Virus record (IMG/VR): IMGVR_UViG_3300015158_000018
Span: 1 to 49,056 of that record
Source: a virus
DNA: 49,056 nt
Direction: 5' to 3' (one strand)
In this document: positions 7,557 to 33,847 of the stretch, piece after piece
Layout: each line of letters opens with the position of its first letter
Position numbering within the stretch: the first letter of the stretch is position 1
Program-made: the position numbers and the translations under genes
Notes under the pieces: model-generated
What the model was told of the DNA's origin: nothing
Databases searched by the model: none
What the model saw: the letters and a program-made list of their open reading frames with translations, nothing else

Positions 7557-7568
7557 AGGAGTTCTGTT

Positions 7569-9702: not shown

Positions 9703-9705
9703 CTA

Positions 9706-9771
9706 CGGCGGGGTGGTCCGTGGCGTAAGCGCGGACAGGGTCATCCTTCGGCACCGGTCAACGCCCCGCCG
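9706..9771 (+). ncRNA. Predicted structured RNA leader upstream of Sak4-like gene
   Basis: A closing helix pairs 9706-9715 with 9762-9771 (CGGCGGGG with CCCCGCCG, plus a G-T wobble and one more G-C pair). Directly stacked inside it, 9716-9722 pairs with 9730-9736 around a GCGTAAG loop. A weaker third hairpin (9739-9741 with 9753-9755, inner CC/GG) completes a three-way junction. The element fills nearly the whole intergenic gap and ends 19 nt before the next ATG, just upstream of its GGAG. I cannot match it to a known class. It could be a cis-regulatory leader, a processing site or a small RNA. Confidence 0.5.
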
Positions 9772-9790
9772 CCCTCATTGGAGCAACAGC

Positions 9791-10645
9791 ATGCCTGTCC
9801 GTATTGTCACCGCCGACGAGCGTCTCTCGGCGGCGCACAACAAGACCTCGATCGCGATTTTCGGGCCACCCGGTGTCGGGAAAACCTCTCTTCTCAAGAC
9901 GCTGCCGTCTGAGCACACGGTCTGTCTCGACCTCGAAGCTGGCATGAAGTCGGTTCAGGATTGGCCCGGCGCCAGCATCCCGGTGCGCAGCTTCGTGGAT
10001 TTCCGCGATCTTGTAGTGTTGATCGGTGGTCCCGATCCCGCGGCGGACCCGAACGCCTGGTACAGCGCGCAGCATCACCAGCATGCACGCGGCGTCTATG
10101 CCGGGAGGGGCATCGAGGAGTTCCTCGCCTCCAAGGCTGTCGTCTTTGTCGACAGCATCACCGACCTGACACGTCAGGTGATGACCTACGCCAAGCAGCA
10201 ACCGGAGGCATTCTCGGATCGGACCGGCAAGCCAGACATTCGAGGCGCGTACGGTCTGCTGGGGCGCGAGGTCATCCAGGCGCTGAAACACCTGCAGCAC
10301 GCCGCCGGCAAGACGGTGATCTTCGTCGGCGTGCTTGAAAAGGTTACCGACGAGTTCAACGTCGTGACCTGGCGGCCGCAAATGGAGGGTTCGAAAGCGG
10401 GCCGCGAGCTCCCCGGCATCGTCGACCAAGTGATGTCGCTACATCTTTTCTCGCGCGCCGCGGATGGCAGTTTCGCGCTCGACGAAAGAGCGACCGAACG
10501 GCGCCTCGTGTGCAAGTCGGGCAATTCGTTTGGACTGCCCGCCAAGGACCGCAGCGGTCGACTGGATATCACAGAGCCGCCTGATCTCGGGGCGCTCCTG
10601 CACAAGATCAACGCCATCGCCGCCGCGCCTGCGGCAGCAGCCTAA
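9791..10645 (+). CDS. Sak4-like AAA/RecA-fold phage ATPase
   Basis: A 284-residue P-loop ATPase with Walker A GPPGVGKT at residues 25-32 and a Walker B strand AVVFVDSITDL. The compact RecA-like core, the EHTVCLDLEAG segment after Walker A and the position beside an ssDNA-binding-like gene fit the Sak4 group of phage recombination ATPases, which promote single-strand annealing or exchange. The ATG at 9791 has GGAG ten bases upstream; a longer in-frame extension would run through the previous gene and the structured leader and is rejected. The protein ends in an alanine-rich tail. Confidence 0.75.
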   Translation: MPVRIVTADERLSAAHNKTSIAIFGPPGVGKTSLLKTLPSEHTVCLDLEAGMKSVQDWPGASIPVRSFVDFRDLVVLIGGPDPAADPNAWYSAQHHQHARGVYAGRGIEEFLASKAVVFVDSITDLTRQVMTYAKQQPEAFSDRTGKPDIRGAYGLLGREVIQALKHLQHAAGKTVIFVGVLEKVTDEFNVVTWRPQMEGSKAGRELPGIVDQVMSLHLFSRAADGSFALDERATERRLVCKSGNSFGLPAKDRSGRLDITEPPDLGALLHKINAIAAAPAAAA

Positions 10646-10669
10646 ATCACATCAACGGAGAACCCACGC

Positions 10670-11386
10670 ATGTACGACCTCAACGATGCTCAGCCGCAAA
10701 TGCCGCCGATCGGCGAGCTCATGCCGGATGGCACCTTCGCGAAGGTGAAGATGACGATCCGTCCGGGTGGACTGAATGGCCCTACCGCCATGGACGCGGG
10801 CCTTTTGAAGGCCTCGCAGCAAAGCGACGCCAAGATGCTCGATTGCGAGTTCACCGTGGTGGATGGCCCCTACGCACGCCGCAAGTTTTGGCAGAACTTT
10901 ACCGTTGCCGGCGGCAAGGTCGATGACAAGGGGCAGTCGAAAGGTTGGAACATCTCGAAGAGCGCGTTCCGCGCCATGGTGGACAGTGCCCTTGGCCTGG
11001 ACGCCAAAGACGAGAGCCCCGCGGCGAAACAGAAGCGCGTCATTCAAGGCTTGAAGCAACTCGACGGCATCGTCTTCGTCGGTCGCATCATGGTCGAGCC
11101 CGCTTCGAGCGCACAGTACAAACCCCAGAATAAGCTCGCAAACGTGGTGCTACCGAAGGATCCGCAATACGCGGCCGTCATGCGCGGCGAGACGGTGCAG
11201 CCAGATCCTGTGAACGCTCCGCCCCGAAAGAATACTGAAGCGCCGAGCGCTCAATCTCCTGCGTGGGCCACCCAGGCGAATGCGCCTTCCGCTCCGCCCG
11301 CGTCCGGTGGTGTGCCTTGGGCCGGGCAAACTGGTCCCAAGCCACAGGGTAACGCCGCCGAAGGTCCGGCCTGGCTGAACGGATAA
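10670..11386 (+). CDS. DUF669-like phage protein, probable ssDNA-binding partner
   Basis: A 238-residue protein. The N-terminal 150 residues form a beta-rich domain with a DCEFTVVDGPYARRKFWQNF segment reminiscent of DUF669 phage proteins, which accompany Sak-type recombinases and are thought to bind ssDNA. The last 60 residues are disordered, rich in Pro, Ala and Gly, and end in PAWLNG, similar in style to the acidic or flexible tails of SSB proteins. It begins 24 nt after the Sak4-like gene with a CGGAG ribosome-binding site. The DNA-binding role is inference. Confidence 0.6.
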   Translation: MYDLNDAQPQMPPIGELMPDGTFAKVKMTIRPGGLNGPTAMDAGLLKASQQSDAKMLDCEFTVVDGPYARRKFWQNFTVAGGKVDDKGQSKGWNISKSAFRAMVDSALGLDAKDESPAAKQKRVIQGLKQLDGIVFVGRIMVEPASSAQYKPQNKLANVVLPKDPQYAAVMRGETVQPDPVNAPPRKNTEAPSAQSPAWATQANAPSAPPASGGVPWAGQTGPKPQGNAAEGPAWLNG

Positions 11387-11394
11387 CGGCGACT

Positions 11395-11628
11395 GTGACG
11401 GACGATGAATGGCAGGCCCACGTCGCGCATGAGGCCGCGAAGGCGATCGGCGAATGGCTCGAGGCAAGAGGAAACCTGCATCAGCCGATTCGCTCTTTAG
11501 CCATGCGCGACCTCGAGGCGATGGCGCAAAACGCCATCAGCCAATTCATCGTCCTGACGTCGCAACGCATTGCGCAACGCCGCTCCGACCCCGAGTTGCG
11601 GAAGCTCTCTCTGCTTCTCGGAGCGTGA
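11395..11628 (+). CDS. Small helical hypothetical protein
   Basis: A 77-residue, mostly helical protein without recognisable motifs (HEAAKAIGEWLEARG, then DLEAMAQNAISQFI). The GTG start at 11395 lies 8 nt after the preceding stop, and its own stop overlaps the GTG of the next gene as GTGA. The tight packing on both sides is the main evidence that it is real. Confidence 0.6.
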   Translation: MTDDEWQAHVAHEAAKAIGEWLEARGNLHQPIRSLAMRDLEAMAQNAISQFIVLTSQRIAQRRSDPELRKLSLLLGA

Positions 11629-11969
11629 GGGTCTGCGCCGTCTGCAGTCGCGAAGCGCGCGGCTTCTATTACACGCACGAGCTTCGACCAAACCGGTACC
11701 CGACCTTCGCGCTGTGCTCGCACCGCTGCCAGCACGCCGGTGTGGCTATCGCCAAGAGGAACTTTGGCATGATCGACAAGACCGCCATGGAGACCCGCGC
11801 GATCAAGGATGCGCGGAAGCCGCTTGCCGAAACGCTCACCGAACTCGGCCTAATGGCGCCATTTCATAATCGCACCGCGGAGGAGATCGATCGAATCATC
11901 GAAGTCTGTGTCGATGGCTTCGCCGAGTCGATGAAGCGCCAAGCCCTCAATGACGACATTCCGTTTTGA
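11625..11969 (+). CDS. Cys-rich small phage protein, probable zinc binder
   Basis: A 114-residue protein starting at a GTG that overlaps the upstream stop. The N-terminus has CAVC, then 20-odd residues later CSHRCQH, a spacing that suits a treble-clef or similar zinc site with four Cys/His ligands. The remainder is helical (TAEEIDRIIEVCVDGFAESM). It may belong to DUF6511, but I am not certain. Position in the replication block suggests an accessory DNA-metabolism role. Confidence 0.6.
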   Translation: MRVCAVCSREARGFYYTHELRPNRYPTFALCSHRCQHAGVAIAKRNFGMIDKTAMETRAIKDARKPLAETLTELGLMAPFHNRTAEEIDRIIEVCVDGFAESMKRQALNDDIPF

Positions 11970-11978
11970 GGCTTCGGC

Positions 11979-12773
11979 GTGCTCGACCTCAACCACGGCT
12001 CAGGCGCCCAGTACGAAGGCCCCGTACGGCCGCCTGGCATTACGGCGGCGGTCAACGCGGCAATCGATACCGCGCTGAGCCAACGGAACCGAGCGCAGCC
12101 TGCTCGCCACTACGTTAGTTCTTCGGGACTTGGCCGCGAGTGCCTACGGCAGATTCAGTACGACTATCTTGCGGTCGCGAAGGACGATGGTCGTGAGTTC
12201 GAACCGAAGACCCTGCGGATCTTCGAAGCAGGTCACCGCTGCGAGGACATCGTGGCGTCATGGTTGCGGGGGGCAGGCTTCGACCTGCGTACACATCGTG
12301 CAAATGGAGGCCAATTCGGCTTCACCGCCTTGGGCGGGCGCTTCCGCGGCCATATTGACGGCTGCGTCGTTGCCGGCCCCGCGCCGATGGCGTTCCCGGC
12401 GCTGTGGGAGACCAAAGCGCTCGGTGCTGCGCCCTGGAAAGACGTCGTCAAAAAGGGAGTTGTGCTGGCTCGGCCCATCTACGCCGCCCAGATTGCGCTC
12501 TATCAGGCCTATCTCGAACTTCCCAATCCAGCCCTCTTCACCGCCTTGAACAGGGACACATTCGAACTCCACTGCGAACTGGTCAACTTTGACGCGGCGC
12601 TAGCGCAAAGCGCGTCCGATCGCGCGGTTGCAGTCGTCACGGCAAGCGACGCGCAAGAATTGCTGCCGCGAGCAGTGATCGACCGAAGCTCGGCGGTCTG
12701 CCGCGGTGGCTGGACGCACGGCGAATGGCATGGCGCCTGCGCCTGGCAAGACCGCTGCTGGGGTGCCACATGA
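11979..12773 (+). CDS. PD-(D/E)XK nuclease, Cas4/AddB-like
   Basis: A 264-residue nuclease of the RecB/Cas4 superfamily. The active-site pattern is clear: GHIDG with Asp127, then WETKA with Glu144 and Lys146, then QIALYQAYL (the QhxxY motif of RecB nucleases). One Cys in GRECLRQ near residue 48 and three near the C-terminus (AVCRGG, then GACAWQDRC) match the layout of Cas4/AddB 4Fe-4S nucleases. It probably resects DNA ends to feed the Sak4-like recombinase. Its stop overlaps the start of the helicase gene as ATGA, and the two may act as a nuclease-helicase pair. Confidence 0.8.
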   Translation: MLDLNHGSGAQYEGPVRPPGITAAVNAAIDTALSQRNRAQPARHYVSSSGLGRECLRQIQYDYLAVAKDDGREFEPKTLRIFEAGHRCEDIVASWLRGAGFDLRTHRANGGQFGFTALGGRFRGHIDGCVVAGPAPMAFPALWETKALGAAPWKDVVKKGVVLARPIYAAQIALYQAYLELPNPALFTALNRDTFELHCELVNFDAALAQSASDRAVAVVTASDAQELLPRAVIDRSSAVCRGGWTHGEWHGACAWQDRCWGAT

Positions 12774-14092
12774 CCGACATCACACCGTCCGATACGCAGT
12801 CGTGCGCGATCGCGTCGATCAAGGAGTGGTTCAACAACCGGACCGGCGAACAGCAGGTGTTTCGTCTCTTCGGCTACGCCGGCACGGGCAAGTCGACCGT
12901 CCTGAAATTTACGCTCCAGGAGTTGGGCCTCGAGCGGCACAAGAGCAGCCGTGAGGGTGGCGAGTGTGCGCCTGGCGTCGTCACCGCAACATTCACCGGC
13001 AAAGCAGCCCTCGTGCTGCGCCGCAAGGGCACACCCGCACGCACCATTCACAGCCTGATCTACAGCGTGATTGCCGCAACGGACGAGGAAGTCGAGGCGG
13101 CGGCAAAGAAGATCGACGAGGCCCAACAACAGGTCCTCAACCTTGCGGGTTTTGATCGCACCGCTGCGGAGGCTGCGATCGAAGCCATGCGGCAGGCACT
13201 CTCTCAGATGAAGAAGCCGCGGTTCGCGCTCAATCCGCAGAGCGATGCCGCACACGCCAAGCTGATCGTGCTCGATGAAGTCTCCATGGTCGGCGAAGAC
13301 ATGGCGCGCGACCTCATGAGCTTCGGGAAACCCATCCTGGTGCTGGGCGACCCCGGGCAACTCCCGCCGATCAAGGGCGAAGGCGCGTTCACGAGAGATC
13401 CGCCCGACATCATGCTGACCGAGATCCATCGCCAGGCCGCGGAAAGCGCAATCATTCGTCTCGCCACGATGGCACGACAGGGAGAACCGATCGGATTTGG
13501 CCAGTACGACACGTTCGTCTGGAAAATGCGCAAGATGGATGTAACGCCCGACCAGTGCTTGCGCGGCGGCCAAGTGATCTGTGGGCTCAACGCCACGCGA
13601 CTCAAGCTCAATAATGCGATGCGGCGTGCAGCCGGATTTGTGGACGGCTGGCTGCCTACAGGGCCAAGCGAAAAGATCATCTGCCTCAAGAACCAAAACG
13701 ACCTTGGCCTCATCAACGGCATGTTTCTCACGCTTGAGGACATCGTTGATGAAGGCAGCCATTTCTTCTCGGCGGTGGTCAGTGACGAGGAGGGAAATCC
13801 GGTTGGTAAATTCGGCAGCAACGCCAAGGGCGAGCGGCTGCGAATCTACAAGGGTCATTTCGAGGACCATGTGGCGTTCGACCGCACACGCCACGATCGC
13901 GACTGGAAGAACAAGCGGATGCTGACCGAGGCAACCTTCGGATGGGCAATCACCGGCCACAAGTCGCAAGGATCGCAATGGGAAAACGTGGTCGTTTGGG
14001 ATGACGGTCTCGGGCGTAGCGAAGCCGACCGCCGGCGATGGCTCTACACCGTGATCACACGAGCAGAGAGGGGGCTCGTGATCCTGTCATGA
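12770..14092 (+). CDS. RecD/Dda-like SF1B DNA helicase
   Basis: A 440-residue helicase. Motif I is GYAGTGKST (residues 35-43), motif II DEVSM (Asp169-Glu170), motif III VLGDPGQLPPI, motif IV-region TEIHRQ, motif V GWAITGHKSQGSQW and motif VI LYTVITRAERGL. That set defines the RecD2/Dda (5'-3') branch of superfamily 1. The ATG at 12770 overlaps the nuclease stop as ATGA; the upstream extension in the same frame is rejected. It in turn overlaps the primase start. A role in origin melting, replication restart or end processing with the adjacent nuclease is likely. Confidence 0.88.
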   Translation: MTDITPSDTQSCAIASIKEWFNNRTGEQQVFRLFGYAGTGKSTVLKFTLQELGLERHKSSREGGECAPGVVTATFTGKAALVLRRKGTPARTIHSLIYSVIAATDEEVEAAAKKIDEAQQQVLNLAGFDRTAAEAAIEAMRQALSQMKKPRFALNPQSDAAHAKLIVLDEVSMVGEDMARDLMSFGKPILVLGDPGQLPPIKGEGAFTRDPPDIMLTEIHRQAAESAIIRLATMARQGEPIGFGQYDTFVWKMRKMDVTPDQCLRGGQVICGLNATRLKLNNAMRRAAGFVDGWLPTGPSEKIICLKNQNDLGLINGMFLTLEDIVDEGSHFFSAVVSDEEGNPVGKFGSNAKGERLRIYKGHFEDHVAFDRTRHDRDWKNKRMLTEATFGWAITGHKSQGSQWENVVVWDDGLGRSEADRRRWLYTVITRAERGLVILS

Positions 14093-16620
14093 TTGACCTC
14101 AACGAGGTCTGGCAGCCACCTCCCCGCTACGACCTCGATGCCATCCGTAGTCGTCTCTGTGCGACGGCGGCCGATTGGCTGCCGGCGTTCTTTCCGCATG
14201 CCCGCATGTCGGCGGATCGAAAGACGCTGCGCTGTGCCGATCTCTCCGGACGTGCGCCACGCGGCGAAGGTTCCTGCGTCATCCACCTGCTCGGTCCGCG
14301 CGCCGGTTGGGGCTTCGATCACGCCACCGGCGAGTCGGCGGGTCCCATCGATCTGATCCATCACTCCACCGGGGTGTCGGGCGTCGCAATGTTCGAAGAG
14401 GCCGCAAAGCAGGCCCGGCTTGATGGTCCAGCCCCCGCAGCACCATCCGGCATCCCCCGCGTTGACCACAGTCACGAGATCGCTCGCATCATCGCCGGCT
14501 GCGTGCCGATCGTCGGGACCGTAGCTCAACGTTATCTCGGTGAACGGCGATTGGAGGATCCAGGCTGCCCAGACCTGCTGTTCAACGACGATCTGAGCGA
14601 CTTCGACACCAAGCGCGGCTGGTGTGGAATGGTCGCGCTGGTCCGCAATGGCGTTGGGGAGCGGACTGGCGGAATTCATCGCACGTATCTGCTCGATGAC
14701 GGATCTGCGAAAGCGCCGCCCGGCAAGAAGATGCTTGGACCTGTTTCCGCAGGCTCGGTGCGGCTCGCACCCCCGGGTGATGACGGGCACCTCGGCGTCG
14801 CCGAGGGCATCGAGACGGCGCTCTCCGCGCGAGCGATCTTCAATATTCCCACGTGGGCCGCTCTTTCCGCAGACGGCCTGCGTCGCTGGGAGTGGCCCAC
14901 TGGGATTAACCAAGTCACGGTCTTCGCCGATGCGGGAACCGCCGGCCAGCAGGCGGCGGCCGACCTTGTGGGACGCCTCAAGGAAGGCGGGATACCAACG
15001 GCAATCGTCTCGCCGCTACATGGCGACGATTTCAACGACGATCTCCGACACGGGGCATCCGCGAAGGACTATGTGGGCTGGGGGCCCTCCGCATCCCCGC
15101 CTGTCCCTGCATCAGCCACCGATTTCGAAGCTGCCGTGCGGGCGCTGGGCAAGCCGCCTGATCTGCCGTTGCTGGGCAGGTTACTGGGCCATCTCGTCCA
15201 GGCCCGGCTGGAGCCGCTTCCCGAACGCCAGGTCCTCGCTGCGATCAAAATCGCAACAGGTATCCCGGTGGCAATCTTGGACAAACAGATCGGAGAACTA
15301 AGGCGCCGGCTGAATGCAACGGGCGACGTTCACGAGCGGCTGAACCGGCCGCGCTGGTCGTCTCAACTGCGCTTGGATCTCGCCGGCACGCCAGAGCGTA
15401 ACGAAGCCAACGTGATCACCGCACTCTCGAATGATGAGGCGTTCGCTGGTGCGCTGGTGTTCGACGAATTCCGGCAGGAGATCCTTGTGATGCGCTCCCT
15501 GCCTTGGGAGGTGCAGACCGCCGGCTTATCTCGCGTTTGGAGCGATGCCGATGACGTGCGATGCGCTGAGTGGCTGCAGCGTCGAGAAATCAACGTCGCC
15601 CCCGTCATCGTAAGTCGCAGTGTCGGAGCGGTCGCTCGCGACATTCGAGTCCACCCTGTCCGCAATTATCTCAGCTCACTTCGGTGGGATGGCACGCTTC
15701 GACTCGATTCTTGGACAACAGCTCACCTTGGTGCTGCCGACACCCCGCTCAATCGAGCGTTTGCATCTCGATGGATGATCTCGGCCGTGGCACGCATCAT
15801 GCGGCCAGGAGTCAAAGCGGACCACATGCTGATCCTTGAAGGGCCGCAAGGCGCGAAGAAATCTAGCGCTCTGAAAGCACTTGCTGGAGAGGAATGGTTT
15901 ACCGACGAGCTCGCAGAAATCGGATCCAAAGACGCGGCCCAACAGATGCGTGGCACATGGATCATTGAGATCGCAGAACTCGATGCGATCAGCCGTGCTG
16001 AGGTGTCACGCATCAAGGCGTTCTTGACCCGCACGACCGACCGCTACCGCCCGCCATACGAGCGCTACATCGTTACCGTGCCACGGCAGTGTGTGTTCGC
16101 GGGAAGTGTGAACCCCGACACATACCTCCGCGATGAAACTGGCAATCGTCGTTTCTGGCCCGTTCGGTGTGGCAGCATCGACCTCGATGCACTGGTGCGC
16201 GATCGCGATCAGCTTTGGGCGGAAGCGGTCGCGCGTTATCAATTGGGTGCTATTTGGTGGCTTGACGAACCAGAATTGGCCGACTTGGCACTCGCCGAGC
16301 AGGAGAAGCGCTATCAGACCGACGCTTGGGACTTCCGCATCGATCATTGGCTGGCGTACGAACGGCGGCGCGTCAATCACGGCTATGGAAATTTTGACGA
16401 CTGGCGTGATGAGGAAGTCGAGCGCGCGAGCCCCCTCATCGATGTTTCGGTGGGGCAGATCCTCGAGACTGCCTTAGGGATTGAAGCGGCGCGGTGGACG
16501 CGGGCCGACCAAATGAGGGTTACGGCCTACCTCAAGGCTCGTGGCTGGGAGCGCTATCAGACTCGCATCGGAACCGGCCGGGGGTCAAACCGAGAGTGGC
16601 GCTACCGTATTACCTCCTAG
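14089..16620 (+). CDS. Toprim primase fused to VirE-type helicase
   Basis: An 843-residue fusion. The N-terminal third is a primase-like module with a Toprim domain: GVAEGIETA around Glu239, then VFADAGTAG around residues 278-286. The second acidic residue of the usual DxD is Gly283, an oddity. The C-terminal half is a virulence-associated-E family SF3-like ATPase: Walker A GPQGAKKSS at 585-593, Walker B WIIEIAEL, and the SVNPDTYLRDETGNRRFWPV sensor region. These phage proteins load at the origin as primase-helicase. Start at ATG 14089 overlaps the helicase stop as ATGA. Despite the family name it is unrelated in function to Ti-plasmid VirE. Confidence 0.85.
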   Translation: MIDLNEVWQPPPRYDLDAIRSRLCATAADWLPAFFPHARMSADRKTLRCADLSGRAPRGEGSCVIHLLGPRAGWGFDHATGESAGPIDLIHHSTGVSGVAMFEEAAKQARLDGPAPAAPSGIPRVDHSHEIARIIAGCVPIVGTVAQRYLGERRLEDPGCPDLLFNDDLSDFDTKRGWCGMVALVRNGVGERTGGIHRTYLLDDGSAKAPPGKKMLGPVSAGSVRLAPPGDDGHLGVAEGIETALSARAIFNIPTWAALSADGLRRWEWPTGINQVTVFADAGTAGQQAAADLVGRLKEGGIPTAIVSPLHGDDFNDDLRHGASAKDYVGWGPSASPPVPASATDFEAAVRALGKPPDLPLLGRLLGHLVQARLEPLPERQVLAAIKIATGIPVAILDKQIGELRRRLNATGDVHERLNRPRWSSQLRLDLAGTPERNEANVITALSNDEAFAGALVFDEFRQEILVMRSLPWEVQTAGLSRVWSDADDVRCAEWLQRREINVAPVIVSRSVGAVARDIRVHPVRNYLSSLRWDGTLRLDSWTTAHLGAADTPLNRAFASRWMISAVARIMRPGVKADHMLILEGPQGAKKSSALKALAGEEWFTDELAEIGSKDAAQQMRGTWIIEIAELDAISRAEVSRIKAFLTRTTDRYRPPYERYIVTVPRQCVFAGSVNPDTYLRDETGNRRFWPVRCGSIDLDALVRDRDQLWAEAVARYQLGAIWWLDEPELADLALAEQEKRYQTDAWDFRIDHWLAYERRRVNHGYGNFDDWRDEEVERASPLIDVSVGQILETALGIEAARWTRADQMRVTAYLKARGWERYQTRIGTGRGSNREWRYRITS

Positions 16621-16793
16621 CGCAAATGAGGAGACCGGCGGCAACACTATTTGCCTCATTAACTTTGTGTTTCAATATCCTACCTTCAAAACCGTTGCGC
16701 TTGAAAAAGATGGTGTAAAGGCGACCGGCCCATCTTCCACTGGGCGCCGCGGAACCCTACATGGAAACGAAAGGCGAACACCAAGGGGCACCC
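16621..16793 (+). promoter_or_regulatory. Leader/promoter region of the CBASS operon
   Basis: This 173-bp gap is visibly richer in A/T than its neighbours between about 16640 and 16720. It contains a 5-bp hairpin (GCCCA/TGGGC, 16728-16745). It is the only long gap between the primase gene and the CBASS operon, so the operon probably has its own promoter here. No convincing -35/-10 pair or operator could be fixed, and no regulator gene of the CapW/CapH type is present beside it. Confidence 0.35.
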
Positions 16794-17792
16794 ATGGTAC
16801 CGCACGCACGCTTTACCGAGCTTCTGACAGACATTGAGCCGAGCCCGACGACAACATCCAACGCCTCGTTGGCACACACCGCCGTGCGGGCCCACCTGCG
16901 GTCGCACGCGGCGTTCAAGAGCCGCTGGCTGGGCGACTTTTTGGCCGGCAGCTATTCACGCAAGACCGCAATCCGACCGAAGAAAACCGAAGACGGACAC
17001 GAACGGCCTGACGTCGACATCATTATGGAGACCAGCTTTGCCACGTCGGACGATCCAGAAGATGCTCTTCAGGAACTTGCCGACGCGCTTGAAGATGAGT
17101 TCACGGTCGAGAGGATCAACAAGCGCTCGGTGCGTGTGGTCACGACCAACGCCGAGATCGACGTCGTGCCGGTCATCGAGTCGGGGACTGTTTACCAATT
17201 GCCCGACCGTGACCTCGGACGATGGAAGACCACGAACCCGGCCGGCCACAATGATTGGAGTCGCGACCAGAACATCACATTCGATGGTCGCTTCAAACCG
17301 CTCGTGAAGCTGTTCAAATGGTGGCGACGCGAAAACAAGACCGGCAAACGTCCCAAAGGTTTCGTGCTGGAGGTATTGGTCTCGAAGCATGCCCCTTCAT
17401 GGGAGAGCCACTACGGCGAAGCGTTCGCTCAGATGCTAGAGAACATTTACGCGGCCTATGGCGCACTCGCGGAAAGCGGCAACAAACCTTACCTCGACGA
17501 TCCCGGTCTCCCAGGTAGCGATATTCTCTCCAAGGTCTCAATTACCGATTGGAAAAACTTCATCGAGCGCATTCGCGTACACGCCGGCTACGCTCGACGG
17601 GCGCAGAACGAGCAAGACATGGAGGAGGCGACAAGGCTTTGGCGCAGGCTCTTTGGTGATCGGTTCAAGCCGACTGCGAACGCCGCCAAGGCCGAAAGCC
17701 TTGCCGCATACGCAGCCGCACCAACCGCGGCACAGGGCTACACGTTCCCTAATGCCCTGGCGGCGCCCAACAAGCCGCGTGGGTTTGCGTGA
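16794..17792 (+). CDS. cdnD: CBASS CD-NTase, CdnD-like cyclic oligonucleotide synthase
   Basis: A 332-residue CD-NTase that makes the cyclic nucleotide alarm signal on phage infection. The nucleotidyltransferase motif is complete: GS at residues 52-53 (AGSYSRKTAIRP), DVD at 73-75 and the third carboxylate Asp123 (EIDVVPV). The C-terminal helical domain contains KLFKWWRREN. I chose ATG 16794 because the resulting start (VPHARFTELLTDIEPS) fits my memory of the E. cloacae CdnD start and an AAGGGG element precedes it; ATG 16761 is the alternative. The protein ends in an Ala/Pro-rich tail closing with PRGFA, suited to Cap2-dependent conjugation. Its stop overlaps the cap2 start (GTGA). Clade D is inference. 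Confidence 0.92.
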   Translation: MVPHARFTELLTDIEPSPTTTSNASLAHTAVRAHLRSHAAFKSRWLGDFLAGSYSRKTAIRPKKTEDGHERPDVDIIMETSFATSDDPEDALQELADALEDEFTVERINKRSVRVVTTNAEIDVVPVIESGTVYQLPDRDLGRWKTTNPAGHNDWSRDQNITFDGRFKPLVKLFKWWRRENKTGKRPKGFVLEVLVSKHAPSWESHYGEAFAQMLENIYAAYGALAESGNKPYLDDPGLPGSDILSKVSITDWKNFIERIRVHAGYARRAQNEQDMEEATRLWRRLFGDRFKPTANAAKAESLAAYAAAPTAAQGYTFPNALAAPNKPRGFA

Positions 17793-19486
17793 AGCTGTGG
17801 TGGCTAACTGATTTTGGTCGGGTCGGCGCGGAGAAAGCGCGGGTCGAGCGGCTTGCTGCCGACGAGGGATGGTTCGCTCTCACCGAATGGCGCATCAATG
17901 AGTACCGCTTGTCGGCTGACGGTGTAATCACAGCACACGGCATCAAGTACCCAGTTCGACTCATCTATCCGGATCAGTTCCCGTCGGTGCCAGCCTGGGT
18001 CGAGCCACAGGATCCTGAGGTACGTTGGAGCGATCACCAGTATGGCAAGGGTGGTCCGCTGTGCCTCGAACTGAGACCGGACAACTGGGCTGACAGCGCC
18101 TCCGGCGCAGATATGCTGCGCAGTGCCTTTAATCTGCTGAGCACCGAAAACCCACTCGGCGACGGCGCTCAACAGCGCGTCGTCTCGGACCATCAAATAG
18201 GGCTGGTGCAGGCGTACGATTGGGGGCAAGAGCCGGTACTAATCGGCGCAAGCTGCCTAGAGCGGCTTCGTGCGGGCACCGCCGAAGATGTCCGCGCCCT
18301 GCGTTGGTCGGCGGACGATAGCGTATGGCCAATTCTCATCTTCGACGCAGCCGACCGTGCGCAACCTCAACATCCACCGTCATTCGATCTCGGCACACTA
18401 CGCCACGAACTGCCGGTCGTCGTCGCGCGAATCGAGCCGCCAATTGAAGGGCCAGCCGATCGTGCCGCGCTCGCGAGCGCGCTCGGTGTTGAGCTTGACC
18501 CCGAACACCATAAGGGGGCTCTAGTTGCTGTGGCCGTCGGCAGTGATCGGATCACGCCGTTCCACTCGCCCGATGCTGGTTCGGTCTTCATCCGGAAGTG
18601 GGTGGTCTTGCCTGAGCAAACAGGTCTCCGCTCAGGAAGACAGGAAATAGCGGTCGCCAAAAAGGTGGCCATCATTGGCTTAGGCTCGGTCGGATCAAAG
18701 GTCGCCGAGATGCTACTTCGCTCCGGTATCCGTCAACTCCTGTTGGTCGATGGAGACGTTCTGTTGCCCGCGAACCTAGAGCGCCACATGCTCGACTGGA
18801 GGGACGTCGGTTTTCGGAAAGCTAACGCGGTCAAGCGACGACTTCTCCATATCGTTCCGGGCGCCACGGTGTCTGTCATCGCTTCCAATCTGAATTGGCA
18901 ACGCTCGTCCCGCATCCATGCCGACCAGATTGAGCGCATCGCGACTTGCGACCTTATCGTCAATGCGACCGGCGACGCTCCAAGCGCCTTAATGCTTGGC
19001 GCGGTCGCCGCCGAGAATGAGAAATCGTTTCTGTCCGTCGAAGTGTTCGAGGGCGGATTGGGTTGCCTATTGGGACGAGCCCTACCCGGACGCGACCCGG
19101 CATACGTTAGCGGTCGTGGCGCATATATGGCGTACTGTGATCAACAGAATGTAGAACCGCCGCCTAGTGGAAGGGGTAACTACGATGTGTTGACTGAAAC
19201 GGGAGAGCCACTGGTCGCCGACGATGCTGCGGTGACTATCGCCGCCGCGCACACCGCGCGAATCGCTCTCGACATCTTGGACGACAAGGTTGGCGATGCA
19301 GACACCGCCTGGCTGCTGATCGGCTTCAGAAAGGGATGGCTCTTCAAGCGGCATGGGCACATCATAGGCCTCGACGTGGGACCTGCTCCGGCAGACGGTG
19401 CAAGTGAGGAAGAAGATGTAGAGGCGCGCACATTCGCACTCGCTCTGGCGAAGGAGGCGCTTGGTGCGATTAAGACTACCCAATGA
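17789..19486 (+). CDS. cap2: CBASS Cap2, E2-E1 ubiquitin-transferase-like protein
   Basis: A 565-residue fusion. The N-terminal E2-like domain has its catalytic Cys92 in GGPLCLELRPDNW. A middle region of about 170 residues follows. The ThiF/E1 adenylation domain starts at residue 293 with VAIIGLGSVG, followed by LLLVDGDVL, LERHMLDW and a candidate E1 catalytic Cys450 in AYCDQQN. Cap2 conjugates the CD-NTase C-terminus to targets and thereby primes cyclic nucleotide synthesis, as established for type II CBASS. It starts at a GTG overlapping cdnD and its 3' end overlaps cap3. Both catalytic Cys residues are present, so the enzyme looks intact. Confidence 0.92.
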   Translation: MKLWWLTDFGRVGAEKARVERLAADEGWFALTEWRINEYRLSADGVITAHGIKYPVRLIYPDQFPSVPAWVEPQDPEVRWSDHQYGKGGPLCLELRPDNWADSASGADMLRSAFNLLSTENPLGDGAQQRVVSDHQIGLVQAYDWGQEPVLIGASCLERLRAGTAEDVRALRWSADDSVWPILIFDAADRAQPQHPPSFDLGTLRHELPVVVARIEPPIEGPADRAALASALGVELDPEHHKGALVAVAVGSDRITPFHSPDAGSVFIRKWVVLPEQTGLRSGRQEIAVAKKVAIIGLGSVGSKVAEMLLRSGIRQLLLVDGDVLLPANLERHMLDWRDVGFRKANAVKRRLLHIVPGATVSVIASNLNWQRSSRIHADQIERIATCDLIVNATGDAPSALMLGAVAAENEKSFLSVEVFEGGLGCLLGRALPGRDPAYVSGRGAYMAYCDQQNVEPPPSGRGNYDVLTETGEPLVADDAAVTIAAAHTARIALDILDDKVGDADTAWLLIGFRKGWLFKRHGHIIGLDVGPAPADGASEEEDVEARTFALALAKEALGAIKTTQ

Positions 19487-19928
19487 TCAGCTGGCGATGC
19501 TTCGACAGGCGCTTCGTCGAGCTGGGACAAAAGAGATCGGTGGACAAATCTTTGGGGAGCAGCTCGCTCCGTCAGACTTCATTGCGTCCGAGCTGACTCT
19601 CCAGAAGCGTCCAGGCACGTTCGCACGCTTCGTCGTCGACTTGGTTCAGGCTGCGCGCGACGCCATGCGATTTTTCGACCGCACCCAGCACCAATATACG
19701 CGCTACAATTACATCGGCGAATGGCACAGCCATCCAAGCTTCGAGGTACATCCGAGCGGTACCGACCTCGCGGCGATGCGCGACTTGGTCTCGGACCCCG
19801 ACTTCAAAGGCCTCTTCGCGGTATTGATGATCACGCGGCTCGAAAGCGGAGAGCTACTCACCTGCCGTGCTTGGATTTTCGATCCCCAGAGGCGCGAGGC
19901 GACTGTCACGGTGGAACAGCAGGGATGA
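19464..19928 (+). CDS. cap3: CBASS Cap3, JAB/JAMM isopeptidase
   Basis: A 154-residue JAB-domain metallopeptidase. The catalytic set is complete: Glu24 in KEIGGQIFGE, then HSHP at residues 88-91 and the Ser98-x-x-Asp101 end of the JAMM motif. Cap3 removes the CD-NTase from its conjugates and antagonises Cap2. A strong AAGGAGG at 19451-19457 places the start at GTG 19464 with 6-nt spacing rather than at TTG 19461. The gene overlaps the end of cap2 by 23 bp and its stop overlaps the cap4 ATG. Confidence 0.92.
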   Translation: MRLRLPNDQLAMLRQALRRAGTKEIGGQIFGEQLAPSDFIASELTLQKRPGTFARFVVDLVQAARDAMRFFDRTQHQYTRYNYIGEWHSHPSFEVHPSGTDLAAMRDLVSDPDFKGLFAVLMITRLESGELLTCRAWIFDPQRREATVTVEQQG

Positions 19929-21343
19929 CCAAGGCGCCGACGCTTACCGACCCGAAAGGAATGGGCGGGATCATTGCCCAGGATGGGTTCGATTATCAGG
20001 TCTGGGATGCATTGGTTCGCTTGCCAACCTGGCTTCGCAATCCGGCATTCGAGGGTATGGCGCTTGAGGCATTGGAGGATCTGGAAGCGCGCTTCTTCGC
20101 TCCGCATGCGCCGCGAGGTCATTTGATCGATCGTTTTCAAGCAAAATCGGGCGTCCTCACCCGATCGGATTTGATCGACCTGTTCTCCTCTTTCAAGACC
20201 TTCGAAGCGTCATATCCACGCGCGGCCCGCATACACACTTTGGTTACACCGGGGCTCCCGCCAACACTGAACTGGATCGCCCGCGATTCCGACCGTGTCC
20301 GGCGCGTGCGTCCGTTCTACAGTCCGTTTGCCGACATCCGCGCGGCTAGTGACGACGAGCTGCGAACCGGCCTTGTCTCGGAGTTTGGACAAGACCTCGG
20401 TGACTACTTCGCTGACAATGTCGAAGTCGCCCTGCGCGTCTTGCCCGATCGCGCTAGTGCTGAAGCTGCATTCGCAAGTGCGCTTCACGATAGTTTCCCG
20501 AACCTCGATACCTCCGCATCCAAGGTAAGAGCAGGTTTTGGAGCGTTGAATGACCTCGTCGCGCAGAATCGAGGAGTGATGCTGACGCGTAGCCAGCTGC
20601 TTGATGCGCTATCGGATGCGCTTGGCGTGCAGTTTGTACAGCCTGGGCCCCTCCCGATTCATGTTCGCTCCGATCGCAACGGCGAGATTGCTGATGCCCT
20701 CGAACTCGATGCCAGCAGCTTCTCCGGTGGCGCGTTAGGCTTTCCGGACACAACGCGCTGGCGTGAAGGGATTTTGGCGCCACTCGAGAAGACGGCGGAC
20801 TGGGCTCGTAGCAGGAATCAAGCGCGCATCGCTCTTTCGGGTTCGTACCGATTGTCGACTGCATTCGCAATAGGATGGGCGTTCCGGTCGGCGATTGGAT
20901 TCGAAATTGAGATCCCGACTAAGTCGGGAAGTTGGGCGACTGACGATCATCCTCCGTTCAACGCGCCCCCACTGCCTTGGACGATCGTGAAGCCGATAAA
21001 TTTGGCCAATGGTCGATTGGTGGTTGGCGTCGGAGTGTTGCGGGATCCTACCCCGGACATCCGACAAGACCCTGCTCTACACCGCAACGATGTCATCCTT
21101 GCGGTCACTTTGCCGCAACCCCTGACGTCCGGTTCCGAAGCACAATCCTTCGTCAAAATTATTAAGGCCGCGGTGGCGCAAGAGGTTGCCCACCTTCGGC
21201 CGACCGGCATTGACCTTTATTATGTCGGGCCAGCGGCGTTAGCTGTCGCGCTTGGGCACCGCTGGAATGCCCTGCCCCGGACCCAGTTGCATGAATTTGA
21301 CGCACCCACCAAACGTTACACACGAACCGCAATTATCGGATGA
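19925..21343 (+). CDS. cap4: CBASS Cap4 effector: nuclease plus SAVED domain
   Basis: A 472-residue effector. The N-terminal domain (about 1-200) resembles the DUF4297-type DNA endonuclease of Cap4: GGIIAQDGFDYQ, a carboxylate cluster ALEDLEARFF, and the QAK triad Q72-K74 in RFQAKSG. The C-terminal 180 residues are a SAVED sensor domain: SGSYRLSTAFAIGWAFR from residue 305 and DLYYVGPAALAVALGHRWNAL from residue 430, both highly typical. Binding of the CD-NTase product should trigger DNA degradation and abortive infection. It starts at an ATG overlapping the cap3 stop. The gene ends 410 bp before ruvC, in a repeat-rich gap. Confidence 0.9.
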   Translation: MTKAPTLTDPKGMGGIIAQDGFDYQVWDALVRLPTWLRNPAFEGMALEALEDLEARFFAPHAPRGHLIDRFQAKSGVLTRSDLIDLFSSFKTFEASYPRAARIHTLVTPGLPPTLNWIARDSDRVRRVRPFYSPFADIRAASDDELRTGLVSEFGQDLGDYFADNVEVALRVLPDRASAEAAFASALHDSFPNLDTSASKVRAGFGALNDLVAQNRGVMLTRSQLLDALSDALGVQFVQPGPLPIHVRSDRNGEIADALELDASSFSGGALGFPDTTRWREGILAPLEKTADWARSRNQARIALSGSYRLSTAFAIGWAFRSAIGFEIEIPTKSGSWATDDHPPFNAPPLPWTIVKPINLANGRLVVGVGVLRDPTPDIRQDPALHRNDVILAVTLPQPLTSGSEAQSFVKIIKAAVAQEVAHLRPTGIDLYYVGPAALAVALGHRWNALPRTQLHEFDAPTKRYTRTAIIG

Positions 21344-21753
21344 TCGGTCCTCAGCGGGGTGTACCGTCACCATCCGCTCAAATGTCACCGGTTTCCAAAA
21401 ATGTCGGTGACACAAAAATCGCTTTGGAATCATAGGTGTCACCAACCACACCAACGTCACCAAAGTTCTGGAGAGTCATGCATGGAAGAAAACATCCGAT
21501 TCTGAATTCCTTTTCTCTAAAGGATGACTCAAACCGGTCGGTGACGACGAGTTTGGTGACGGCAAGGTTCAAGTCCTTTGAGAAGCTCGCATAATCGGTG
21601 TCATCAACCTCATCGCCTCCGTGTGAAATGCTCATCACAGCGTGTGACGATCACTTTTGAGAGCGTGTGTCGATTTTTCTTGTGATCGCGAATCCGAGAA
21701 CCTAGAAAATATGCGACCGAAGCCGAGGGCCCACGTTTCCGTGAGCCTTCCCT
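21344..21753. repeat. Noncoding region with seven GTCACC/GGTGAC repeats
   Basis: No believable gene lies in this 410-bp gap. GTCACC occurs at 21366, 21384, 21438 and 21456, and its complement GGTGAC at 21406, 21540 and 21555: seven copies in about 195 bp. Two pairs are direct repeats exactly 18 bp apart (21366/21384 and 21438/21456), and one pair is 15 bp apart (21540/21555). The wider consensus is close to GTCACCRA. The region separates the CBASS operon from ruvC. It could be a set of operators or an iteron-like replication site. Confidence 0.7.
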
Positions 21754-22278
21754 GTGACGATCCTTCCCGAAACCGTAGCAATCCCACCAGCGCGATTGGT
21801 TGAAAGCGCCCACCCCACCATTCTGGCCGTCGATCTCGGCACCGTCACCGGTTGGGCAACGCGATTATCTGCCGGCGAGATCCAAAGCGGAACCGTCTCA
21901 TTCCGTCCAAGCCGTTACGATGGCGGCGGGATGCGCTACCTGCGCTTCCGTGCCTGGCTCGATGACATTGCGACGAATGCGCCCGGCCTATCCGCCATCT
22001 ATTTCGAGGAGGTCCGACGCCACGTCGGCACCGACGCTGCTCACATCTATGGCGGCCTGCTCGCAACGCTGACGTCCTGGTGCGAGCAATCCCACATCGC
22101 GTATCAAGGCGTCCCAGTCGGCACGATCAAGAAATTCATCGCGGGCAAGGGCAATGCTGACAAGCAAGCCGTGATAAATGCGGTTCGCGCACGCGGCCAT
22201 CAACCTGCCGACGACAACGAAGCCGACGCGATCGCAATTCTCCTGTGGTCGATTGAGACCCATGGGGGCGTGCGATGA
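21754..22278 (+). CDS. ruvC: RuvC-like Holliday junction resolvase
   Basis: A 174-residue RNase H-fold resolvase. The first catalytic Asp27 is in LAVDLGTVTGWA, the Glu85 in IYFEEVRRH, and the C-terminal carboxylates Asp153/Asp154 and Asp158 in DDNEADAIA. The segment KGNADKQAVINAVRARGH is typical of phage RuvC proteins. The GTG at 21754 has only a weak ribosome-binding site, so the exact start is uncertain. It would cut branched recombination or packaging intermediates late in infection. Its stop overlaps the next start (ATGA), opening a tight four-gene operon. Confidence 0.85.
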   Translation: MTILPETVAIPPARLVESAHPTILAVDLGTVTGWATRLSAGEIQSGTVSFRPSRYDGGGMRYLRFRAWLDDIATNAPGLSAIYFEEVRRHVGTDAAHIYGGLLATLTSWCEQSHIAYQGVPVGTIKKFIAGKGNADKQAVINAVRARGHQPADDNEADAIAILLWSIETHGGVR

Positions 22279-23222: not shown

Positions 23223-23224
23223 TC

Positions 23225-23263
23225 GGTGAGACATTTTTTGGTGAGACATCAAAGTGCGAGACA
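23225..23263 (+). repeat. Three direct repeats with 15-bp period
   Basis: GGTGAGACAT occurs at 23225-23234 and 23240-23249, exactly 15 bp apart. A third, degenerate copy, TGCGAGACA, starts at 23255, again 15 bp on. Spacers are T-rich. The regular period suggests a protein-binding array such as an iteron or a terminase-binding site. Confidence 0.7.
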
Positions 23264-23332
23264 GAAGCAGAAAGTTTGGCTATGAATTTCGTTATGGTCG
23301 CGAGAGTCGTGATTGACACCACCACACTAAAT

Positions 23333-23402
23333 CGCGGGTCCTCCCTGGCTCAGAATTGAATGCGGGGGGCAATGGCGCCGCGGTTCGCTACTGACACCCG
23401 CG
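23333..23402. other. GC-rich dyad, candidate cos or packaging site
   Basis: CGCGGGT at 23333-23339 and ACCCGCG at 23396-23402 form a 7-bp inverted repeat. Between them lie a pyrimidine-rich block (TCCTCCC) and a run of six G at 23363-23368. Together with the upstream direct repeats the layout resembles the cosN plus cosB arrangement of cos phages. It is 3 kb from the terminase genes rather than directly before them, so this is a suggestion only. Confidence 0.3.
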
Positions 23403-23410
23403 AAATCTGA

Positions 23411-23533
23411 GTTACCAGTTACCACTGGTTACGTCCCAATAAGCCAGCAAACACGGCGGTTTCTGGCCTTTCGGATCGGCTGGTAACCTCCGCAAGTTAC
23501 CAGACATGGGTAACACTGAGGGCTAGCGGTAAC
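23411..23533. repeat. Cluster of GTTACC/GGTAAC hexamers
   Basis: GTTACC lies at 23411, 23418 and 23496, GGTAAC at 23482, 23509 and 23528, with a related GGTTAC at 23427. Six exact copies in about 120 bp, in both orientations, is far above chance. The last copy falls inside the 3' end of the Spy-like gene. The hexamer differs by one base from the GTCACC of the upstream cluster, so related proteins may bind both. Confidence 0.65.
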
Positions 23534-24038
23534 CGCGAAGCTCGGCGTACCGATGCATCTGATGCATGGAAAGAGCCTCGGCAGTCGTCAGATGGTACTT
23601 CAGGTGAACGGTTCTTAGCTCACCCTGCGTTTCGCCAACCTTAGTCGTAAGGTCGGCCAGTGACGCAGGAGAGATTGTCCTGTCGGCAAACGCCTTGTCG
23701 AGCGCCTGCTCCTGCTGGATCAGCTTTGCGCCCACAGTCACCGCCTCGGCTTTCATTGCTTCGTACAGCTCGCGCATCCTCTGGCGCTGCTCGACGGTGA
23801 GTTCAAGTTGATCGGCAAGCTCAAGCACATGGATAGGCCCGGGGTAGCCGTTGAGTTCGGCCGCCAACGCCAAGCCCATCCCGCGACCCGCGCGAAGGTC
23901 CGAGAGTTGCTGTTCACTGAGCGCTTTCACAAGCCGCTGCTGCAAACCAGAATACGGAGAAGTACCGTGTTGCTGATGTTGAGCAACTGCCACGCCACCG
24001 AGCGCGAGGGTCGTCGCTACCGCAAGACCGAGCTTCAT
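23523..24038 (-). CDS. Spy/CpxP-like periplasmic protein
   Basis: A 171-residue secreted protein. It begins with a signal peptide (KLGLAVATTLALGGVAVAQ), so it should reach the periplasm. The mature part is helical, with the characteristic LELADQLELTVEQRQRMRELYEAM segment seen in Spy/CpxP and heavy-metal sensor chaperones. A GGAGAG element precedes the ATG. It is transcribed against the phage genes and is flanked by noncoding DNA on both sides, typical of a lysogenic-conversion (moron) gene. A chaperone or metal-stress role in the lysogen is inference. Confidence 0.75.
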   Translation of the reverse strand: MKLGLAVATTLALGGVAVAQHQQHGTSPYSGLQQRLVKALSEQQLSDLRAGRGMGLALAAELNGYPGPIHVLELADQLELTVEQRQRMRELYEAMKAEAVTVGAKLIQQEQALDKAFADRTISPASLADLTTKVGETQGELRTVHLKYHLTTAEALSMHQMHRYAELRGYR

Positions 24039-24172
24039 GAAGTCTCTCCGGTTGTTAGCTGAGGCCGGATGTTAACCGAGGTTCTTCAGCTGCAGAAGAA
24101 GGCCAACGTCTAGGTCACGCTGCTTTGATCGCACGGTCGCCGGACGGGTTATCGCCTTTACAGCCTAGAAAC

Positions 24173-26470: not shown

Positions 26471-27031
26471 ATGGGACTTTCGATCCGCGCCTACGCGCGT
26501 CATCGTGGCGTCAGCCATGTCGCGGTGATGAATGCGATCAAGGCCGGACGTGTTCCGGTGGAGGCGGACGGCACGATTGAGCCCGCGAAAGCGGACGCCG
26601 CATGGAAGCGCTCGACCGATCCAGGTCGCGCCAAGTCGGCACCAAAGCGTGCGGCCTCGGAAAATCTGAAGCCCGTCGCGGACGCCGCGCTTGGCTCGGT
26701 ACGGGAGACGTTGAAGGAACAAGGGCTCCCAGCGGGTTCGAACGTCACCTTCGTTCAGGCGCGCACCGCTCATGAGATCGCCAAGGCGCACCTCGCGCGA
26801 CTGCGGCTGCAGCGGATGAAGGGAGAACTCGTCGATCGCGCGCGAGCCACTGCGATGATCTTCCGCCTGGCGCGCGAGGAAAGGGATTCTTGGCTCAACT
26901 GGCCGGCGCGCGTCGCCGCACTCATCGCGGCAGACCTCGGCGTCGAGGCCCATGCGGTTCAAAAGCTCATAGAAACGCATGTCCGCGGTCACCTCGCCGA
27001 ACTCGCCGAGATCCGGGCTGAGTTCAGATGA
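26471..27031 (+). CDS. Terminase small subunit, Nu1-like
   Basis: A 186-residue protein. The N-terminus is a winged-helix/HTH (SIRAYARHRGVSHVAVMNAIKAG) like lambda gpNu1, and the rest is helical with basic residues, ending in an oligomerisation-type helix (AHAVQKLIETHVRG). It precedes and overlaps the large subunit by 53 bp. It should bind the phage cos or pac site and recruit the large subunit. Which DNA site it recognises is unknown; the repeats at 23.2 kb are one candidate. Confidence 0.78.
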   Translation: MGLSIRAYARHRGVSHVAVMNAIKAGRVPVEADGTIEPAKADAAWKRSTDPGRAKSAPKRAASENLKPVADAALGSVRETLKEQGLPAGSNVTFVQARTAHEIAKAHLARLRLQRMKGELVDRARATAMIFRLAREERDSWLNWPARVAALIAADLGVEAHAVQKLIETHVRGHLAELAEIRAEFR

Positions 27032-28982
27032 TCTCTTTGGGTTCGACGGCGCCGATGAGCTGAGCCAGGCTTGGCGCGCTGGGCTGCTGCCCGACCCGGC
27101 GCTCACCGTTTCTGAGTGGGCCGACAGGCATCGACTGTTGAGTCCGCGTGCGTCGGCGGAGCCCGGACGTTATCGAACGGATCGCACTCCCTACATCCGG
27201 GAGATCGTCGACGCGCTCTCGCCAATGAACCCGACGCGGCGCGTCGTGGTGATGAAGTCAGCGCAAGTCGGCTTCACGGAAGGCGGAAACAACTGGATCG
27301 GCTACGTGATCCACCACGCGCCCGGGCCGATGCTCGCGGTGCAGCCGACCGTCGAACTCGCCAAGCGCTTCTCGCGCCAACGCGTCGATCCGCTGATCAG
27401 CGAAAGCCCTTCGCTACGCGAACGTGTGCGCCCGGCGCGATCTCGCGACGCCGGCAACACCGTGCTGTCGAAGGAGTTTCCGGCGGGTTTGCTGGTGATC
27501 ACCGGCGCAAACAGCGCGGTTGGCCTGCGCTCGATGCCGGCGCGCTACCTGTTTCTGGACGAGGTGGATGCCTACCCGCCGTCCGCCGACGAGGAAGGCG
27601 ACCCGGTAGCGCTTGCTGAAGCGCGCACTCGGACGTTCTCGTGGCGTTCTAAGATTCTGCTCGGTTCCACGCCGACGATCCACGGTCTCTCGCGGATCGA
27701 ACGCGAGTACGAGACGACAGATCAGCGCCGCTTCTTCGTCCCCTGCCCGCATTGTCAGGAAAAACAATGGCTTAGGTTCGAGCGGCTGCGCTGGGAGAAG
27801 GGTCGGCCGGAGACCACTCATTATATATGCGCGTCCTGCGACGGCCGGATCGAGGAACACCACAAAACCGCGATGCTCGCCGCGGGCAAGTGGCGCCCGA
27901 CCGCCGAGGCCCAAGACCCCGGCACGATCGGGTTTCACGTCTCGGCGCTGTATTCGCCGGTTGGCTGGTTTTCGTGGGAGCACATCGCACGCGCGTGGGA
28001 AGCCGCGACCACCGATGAGGCGAAGCGCAGTTTCAAGAACAGCGTGCTCGGCGAGACCTGGATCGAGACCGGCGAGGCGCCGGACTGGCAGCGTCTCTAT
28101 GAGCGCCGCGAGCCGTTGCAGATCGGAACGGTCCCGCATGGCGGTCTCTTCCTGACCGCCGGTGCGGACGTTCAGAAGGATCGCATCGAGGTCGATATCT
28201 GGGCGTGGGGTCGCGGCCTCGAGAGCTGGCTTGTCGATCATATCGTCATCGATGGTGGGCCCGAGCATGCTGCGACATGGGATGGGCTTGCGCTCTTGCT
28301 CGGTCGCACGTGGCTGCATGCCGGTGGAGCGCAGCTCGGTCTCGCAAAGCTAGCGATCGATACCGGCTATGAAAGTCCCGCTGTCTACGCTTGGGCGCGC
28401 CGCATGGGGCACGCGCAGGTCGCGCCCATCAAAGGCGTCGAGGGCTTCAATCGATCCGCGCCGGTCGCAGGGCCGACGCATGTCGACGTCACCGAGGGCG
28501 GCAAGAAGCTGCGCCGCGGTGCACGGCTTTGGACCATCGCGGTCGCGACCTTCAAGAGCGAGACGTACCGATTTCTGCGTCTCAATAGGCCGACCGATGA
28601 AGAGGCCGCCGATGGCGCGCGTGGGCCGGCGGGATACGTGCACCTGCCCGCTGGGGCAGACGCCGAATGGGTCAAGCAGCTCGTCTCCGAGCAACTTGTC
28701 ACGATCAAAACCAAGCGCGGCTTCAGTCGGCTCGAATGGCAGAAACTGCGCGAACGCAACGAGGCGCTCGACTGCCGCGTTTACGCGCGGGCGGCCGCGT
28801 GGATCGCCGGTGCAGATCGTTGGACTGAAGCAATGTGGCGCGACCTCGAACGTCAGGTGGGTTCGGCGGCGACGACTGACCGAGAGCCAAGCGATAGCAG
28901 CCCCGAAATCGTCGCTGGCCTTGTGCGCCGCCGACCTGACGCCCGCGGCCGGCGCGTCTTTCGATCAAGTTACGTTGGCTAG
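26979..28982 (+). CDS. Terminase large subunit, GpA family
   Basis: A 667-residue packaging ATPase/nuclease of the lambda gpA family. The ATPase P-loop-like segment VVVMKSAQVGFTEGGNN (Lys93 onward) and the Walker B FLDEVDAYP (Asp194-Glu195) are clear. A zinc-binding module PCPHCQEK plus CASCDGRIEEHHK follows, and the C-terminal half holds the nuclease. GpA terminases cut cos sites. The ATG at 26979 lies inside the small-subunit gene; no other in-frame ATG is near. The stop is 1 bp from the end of a convergent small gene. Confidence 0.92.
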   Translation: MSAVTSPNSPRSGLSSDDLFGFDGADELSQAWRAGLLPDPALTVSEWADRHRLLSPRASAEPGRYRTDRTPYIREIVDALSPMNPTRRVVVMKSAQVGFTEGGNNWIGYVIHHAPGPMLAVQPTVELAKRFSRQRVDPLISESPSLRERVRPARSRDAGNTVLSKEFPAGLLVITGANSAVGLRSMPARYLFLDEVDAYPPSADEEGDPVALAEARTRTFSWRSKILLGSTPTIHGLSRIEREYETTDQRRFFVPCPHCQEKQWLRFERLRWEKGRPETTHYICASCDGRIEEHHKTAMLAAGKWRPTAEAQDPGTIGFHVSALYSPVGWFSWEHIARAWEAATTDEAKRSFKNSVLGETWIETGEAPDWQRLYERREPLQIGTVPHGGLFLTAGADVQKDRIEVDIWAWGRGLESWLVDHIVIDGGPEHAATWDGLALLLGRTWLHAGGAQLGLAKLAIDTGYESPAVYAWARRMGHAQVAPIKGVEGFNRSAPVAGPTHVDVTEGGKKLRRGARLWTIAVATFKSETYRFLRLNRPTDEEAADGARGPAGYVHLPAGADAEWVKQLVSEQLVTIKTKRGFSRLEWQKLRERNEALDCRVYARAAAWIAGADRWTEAMWRDLERQVGSAATTDREPSDSSPEIVAGLVRRRPDARGRRVFRSSYVG

Positions 28983-28983
28983 A

Positions 28984-29262: not shown

Positions 29263-29333
29263 GACGCTATTCCCCGGTTCCCTTAGTGGAACTCTACCCC
29301 CCTCGTACGATCTTTCAAAGCCCTTCCCACAGC

Positions 29334-29552: not shown

Positions 29553-29558
29553 CGCAAC

Positions 29559-31028: not shown

Positions 31029-31033
31029 CCCCG

Positions 31034-32311: not shown

Positions 32312-32345
32312 CTGATTTCGGCCTGAGATCAAGGAGAAAGACCGC

Positions 32346-32735: not shown

Positions 32736-32761
32736 CCCGTCCCATCAAAGCAACTACCCAC

Positions 32762-32789: not shown

Positions 32790-32808
32790 AACCATTTCGG
32801 GAGCCTCA

Positions 32809-33831: not shown

Positions 33832-33847
33832 GCCGCATCGTAGCGGC

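Follow-up and report, generated by a model that had tools for sequence, protein, structure and literature searches.

The window, which is the whole stretch of DNA that was analysed, corresponds to one virus record, 49,056 bases long, that stops within the phage at its right end. It carries a four-gene operon (positions 16794–21343) whose gene content is that of a complete type II CBASS; such systems are well known, and this one is of the usual kind. The carrier is an alphaproteobacterial temperate phage. We consider it likely that this operon is cargo of the phage, held in a slot between the primase gene and a repeat array on the ruvC side, and that it would protect lysogens from rival phages.

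The operon consists of four full-length genes, CD-NTase, Cap2, Cap3 and Cap4, all on the + strand and overlapping by 4, 26 and 4 nt, in that order. All of them gave strong matches when each protein was searched against CBASS profiles, which bears out the gene set and the type II assignment of the preliminary description. The first gene (16794–17792, 332 amino acids) encodes a CD-NTase, a cyclic oligonucleotide synthase that matched Pfam SMODS (131.8 bits, 3.5e-38), the PADLOC cyclase (444 bits) and PDB entry 9sa4 (E 6e-72). Its start at 16794 is the equivalent of the start codon in plasmid homologues; a longer open reading frame from 16761 is also present. Cap2 (17789–19486, 565 amino acids) is an E2–E1 fusion conjugating enzyme, with a PADLOC E1–E2 match of 518 bits over residues 3–551, a ThiF match (2.5e-21) and similarity to the Cap2 structures 7tsq and 7to3. 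It is followed by Cap3 (19461–19928, 155 amino acids), a JAMM isopeptidase (Prok-JAB 5.8e-10; PADLOC JAB 184 bits). The last gene (19925–21343, 472 amino acids) encodes a Cap4-type effector with an N-terminal nuclease and a SAVED sensor, the domain pairing that had been read from the sequence. It matched the PADLOC endonuclease effector (623 bits) and Pfam SAVED (72.7 bits, 4.3e-20), and aligned to the solved Cap4 structures 6vm5 and 6vm6 with 453 residues covered (E 3e-21).

The active sites were also read as intact in the preliminary description, and with one exception this reading held. In the CD-NTase, the GS-DxD-D motif is complete (GS52-53, D73/D75 and D123) and the site is conserved in 8 sequences. 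The protein ends in KPRGFA, and the GFA tail up to Ala332 is likewise invariant among the 8 sequences, so the enzyme has the Ala/Gly end of type II cyclases. The JAMM residues of Cap3 (E33, H89, H91 and D102) are all present and conserved in homologues, and the Cap4 nuclease residues D52, E54 and AK73-74 are invariant in six homologues. The exception concerns Cap2. Its E2 cysteine, C92, was named correctly and is a cysteine in all 15 homologues aligned (15/15), but C450, which had been proposed as the E1 cysteine, is probably not the right residue. The phage protein has cysteines at both C387 and C450; the C387 column holds a cysteine in 13 of 15 homologues and is nearly invariant in a second alignment, compared with only 8 of 15 for C450. 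Moreover, the sole cysteines of a Sporosarcina Cap2, C90 and C394, fall in the columns of C92 and C387. In Bacillus cereus Cap2, mutating either E2 C91 or E1 C403 abolished immunity (PMC11153139), and the Sporosarcina spacing matches this C91/C403 pair. Judged through this homologue, the B. cereus residues fit the columns of the phage C92 and C387, which makes C387 the likelier E1 cysteine in place of C450. Two other Cap2 proteins, from Mesorhizobium amorphae (with a serine at the C387 column) and from locus L250, lack the C387-column cysteine and have the C450-column one; a shift of the catalytic cysteine is possible in these two.

Phage genes lie on both sides of the operon, which places it within the phage and not beyond its boundary. 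To its left are a serine integrase in the left arm (4723–6084, − strand; phrog_95 1.3e-109, Resolvase 1e-39), a DUF2924 gene, M78 peptidase-like and repressor-like genes of lysogeny control (6825–7850, + strand; Peptidase_M78 2.7e-05, phrog_3 1.7e-07), and recombination and replication genes encoding Sak4-like, Cas4-type exonuclease and Dda-like helicase proteins (9584–14092, + strand; phrog_124, phrog_1990 and phrog_325). The immediate flanks agree with the claim of a position between primase and ruvC. A VapE-type primase-helicase (14038–16620, + strand; VapE-like 1.8e-81, Toprim_3, phrog_256) forms the left wall of the slot, and a RuvC-like Holliday junction resolvase (21754–22278, + strand; phrog_159 6.6e-26) follows on the right, succeeded by DUF6362, a ParB-methyltransferase, and terminase, portal, protease, capsid, tail and tape-measure genes (26471–39588, + strand; phrog_57, 15, 21, 53, 29, 807 and 58). 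Near the left end of the window, an HmaC-like gene (DUF499, 1494–4277; PADLOC HmaC 411 bits) adjoins phage recombinase genes, and in a related record (90% identical, with one internal TAG) it adjoins the integrase. A search of 398 Hyphomicrobiales genomes at E 1e-80 returned no such gene, and it may therefore belong to the phage as cargo and not to the host. An attL inside hmaC was considered, given that identity to the relative falls at ∼3.9 kb; the stretch is short and of low conservation, and coding similarity resumes up to the stop, for which reason we did not put the phage boundary there.

To compare the slot among relatives, loci were gathered by primase and RuvC in viral contigs and by primase in genomes, and the two genes occurred together in 137 distinct loci. 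The VapE–RuvC interval measured ∼0.37–0.6 kb in 66 of these and 0.6–6.8 kb in the other 71 (interquartile range 498–2627 bp, maximum 6800). The intervals on its two sides were far more uniform in the same loci, with interquartile ranges of −51 to −38 bp for helicase–VapE and 151–163 bp for RuvC–DUF6362. The Cas4–helicase interval varied by several hundred bases. A second variable interval lies between DUF6362 and the ParB-methyltransferase (23223–24124 in the window), with an interquartile range of 383–1907 bp and a maximum of 3921 among the relatives. Among 97 locus pairs, not independent of one another, with VapE at least 95% identical, the cargo differed in 67, was shared in 8 and was missing from both members in 22. 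Variation at this slot among related prophages, whose absence would have counted against the preliminary description, is thus strongly supported, and close relatives differ in cargo. Some of the alphaproteobacterial-type prophage loci came from metagenome-assembled genomes (MAGs) labelled Exiguobacterium profundum, Microbispora and Stygiobacter, which are probably mislabelled or contaminated.

Slot proteins of at least 140 amino acids fell into 96 clusters. We scanned the main proteins of 27 slots with PADLOC, counting cluster mates, and obtained strong defence matches in 13; these slots were picked for size and partly for a defence-like look, so 13 of 27 is not an unbiased rate. The matches were to IetAS (five slots), LmuB-like proteins (two), AbiEii of AbiE (two), Lamassu LmuA/LmuB, OLD, a PtuA-like protein (PtuA/PDC-M01A) and PD-T7-1 (one each). 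Defence is not all that the slot accommodates: some slots hold other cargo (a multicopper oxidase, a P-type ATPase, a short-chain dehydrogenase or a PAS histidine kinase), and many hold proteins of no known function. A two-gene cargo recurs in seven slots, combining an HTH-M78 peptidase protein of 356–373 amino acids with a partner of up to 275 amino acids in what looks like a toxin–antitoxin arrangement. Four very large cargo proteins of 816–1828 amino acids matched Pfam and PADLOC weakly or not at all (L077:12761–16819, L191:12685–16104, L006:8411–10861 and L233:12789–18275); as the slot often holds defence genes, we regard them as candidate new defence systems.

Prophage defence hotspots as such are already known (PMC9122126), and the VapE–RuvC slot shares two features with the P2/P4 type, a variable interval between two conserved phage genes and the presence there of different defence systems in related phages. 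Like the P2/P4 and Vibrio phage hotspots, it is a small variable locus of ∼1–5 kb; unlike them (those of Vibrio phages lie between cI and the integrase), it sits in the replication module of tailed alphaproteobacterial phages, beside a repeat array. A search of the open-access literature, preprints excluded, returned no description of a primase–RuvC slot, which thus appears to be an undescribed cargo and defence hotspot.

The right wall of the slot is a non-coding element (21344–21753) in which the motif GGTGAC/GTCACC occurs in 7 copies within 410 bp; elsewhere the density is 0.20 per 410 bp, and no 410-bp window sampled outside this region exceeded 2 copies. At the equivalent place, relatives have arrays of lineage-specific motifs, including GTCCCA, CCCAAC, GTCCAA, GTCCTA and TGGGAAC. 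The array sits between cargo and ruvC in most slots. Of the occupied slots, 68 had a repeat-rich stretch, and in 59 of them its best 400-bp window starts within 600 bp of ruvC; in a few (L005, L163 and L179), it adjoins the primase and the cargo lies on the other side. A 6-mer count across all slots set the arrays apart from coding controls only moderately, so that our description relies on position, motif family and the copy number in the window. The array is possibly a replication origin or operator, and the variation of its motif between lineages suggests one with a co-evolving binding protein.

The nearest relatives of the CBASS are on plasmids of rhizobia, and others are on Moraxellaceae plasmids; the four-gene order is the same on plasmids of Mesorhizobium, Ensifer, Moraxella and Acinetobacter. 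Compared with the operons of Mesorhizobium amorphae and Ensifer adhaerens, which unlike the present one sit on plasmids, identity is 60–62% for CD-NTase, about 53% for Cap2, 63–71% for Cap3 and 48–52% for Cap4. The Acinetobacter and Moraxella plasmid operons, which include a Cap4 (6vm5/6vm6), have a CD-NTase that is 43–44% identical; the phage Cap4 is only ∼23% identical to theirs, and its ligand may therefore differ. The nearest prophage host with a name is a Pseudolabrys MAG, and one of 398 genomes of its order had the same CBASS type. From these sequence relationships, the phage probably acquired its CBASS from a plasmid or genome pool of rhizobia and Moraxellaceae. A type II CBASS from B. 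cereus WPySW2 has the same components, a cyclase, Cap2, Cap3 and a Nuc-SAVED effector, and its cyclase tail, KPGGFA ending at Ala331, compares with KPRGFA ending at Ala332 in the phage. Upstream regulator genes accompany the B. cereus operon, whereas none was seen for the phage operon, which directly follows the primase. The passages of that source drawn on here do not mention phage carriage, and they report ∼10^4-fold protection against several phages when the operon was placed in B. subtilis (PMC11153139).

When other viral contigs were scanned with Cap4, the CD-NTase and an alignment of 8 CD-NTase sequences, the same CBASS did not turn up. INPHARED phages likewise gave no match for CD-NTase or Cap4 and one partial match of 74 residues for Cap2, and a SMODS search of 33 viral records was negative. 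These scans depend on conserved peptides or sequence similarity, and more distant CBASS types would escape them. As no other searched viral contig carries this type, the occurrence of CBASS in the slot rests on one record.

The orientation of the operon bears on when it would be expressed. Its genes are co-directional with those for replication and begin 173 bp downstream of the primase, and neither a terminator-like nor a promoter-like site was found on the + strand of the intervening gap (16621–16793), where the sigma-70 scan used covers alphaproteobacterial promoters poorly. The last 30 nt of the gap contain a short block resembling the upstream region of plasmid CBASS operons, with 15 nt that are 93% identical to the Mesorhizobium sequence at a weak E-value. 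Since the strand is shared and no + strand terminator-like site intervenes, co-expression of the CBASS with the replication genes on induction is possible, and such a placement is odd for a suicide system expressed in lysogeny. A bolder proposition, which we regard as rather doubtful, is that cargo genes in this group of phages gather between the primase gene and the origin-like array, making the slot a systematic, undescribed defence reservoir, and that transcription of the replication operon takes in the CBASS; the phage would then deploy a suicide system, or have to silence it actively, while replicating.

The same layout could be taken to mean that the CBASS is expressed mainly in the lytic programme, by read-through from the replication genes, and that instead of guarding the lysogen it acts against co-infecting phages or satellites or keeps down the burst of the phage itself. 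Co-directional cargo is indeed less usual: in 48 of 63 relatives, the cargo lies mainly on the other strand. We think such a lytic role clearly unlikely, however, because a DNA-destroying nuclease, if triggered, would harm the phage's own replication. In addition, the sigma-70 scan, given its poor fit, may have missed a private promoter, and the other 15 of the 63 relatives also have mainly co-directional cargo. Still less probable, in our estimate, is that a mobile CBASS landed in a tolerant intergenic gap as a neutral passenger of no gain to the phage: a slot that takes non-defence genes too, a single occurrence in viral collections and close relatives on plasmids would all fit, but the four genes are intact with their active-site residues, and defence systems recur in the slot. 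Finally, a chimera assembled from a phage contig and a plasmid contig with CBASS is a concern when the window is one virus record and a search for another with these junctions found none, but we regard it as scarcely credible. The operon is inserted precisely after the primase stop and before the repeat array, which is the place of cargo in relatives; the flanking primase and ruvC genes are both complete, and G+C is similar; and Hyphomicrobiales are the source of the closest CBASS relatives as well as of the nearest prophage host with a name.

Protection of the lysogen is the preferred role; the preliminary description proposed it, together with a need to restrain the system when the prophage is induced, and both are reasonable suppositions. 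When another phage infects, Cap2 would conjugate the cyclase, by its C-terminal Ala332, to a target, a step that Cap3 would reverse. Once triggered, the CD-NTase would make a cyclic trinucleotide, probably a cAAA-like one; Cap4 relatives sense cAAA or cAAG (PMC10419184). Binding of this molecule to the SAVED domain of the Cap4-type effector would set its nuclease to degrade the cell's DNA. The infected lysogen would then die or stall, leaving the rival phage without spread, and the benefit to the carrier would be its protected lysogens.

The interest here lies in the location and not in the operon, which is a standard type II CBASS. Phages of Rhodobacterales, Rhodospirillales and Hyphomicrobiales have this variable slot in their replication module, well delimited on both sides and filled in about half of the cases, with many large proteins of no known function beside defence systems. 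This makes the slot a searchable source of candidate antiviral genes, and it raises the question of how a suicide system can be carried beside a phage's own replication genes.
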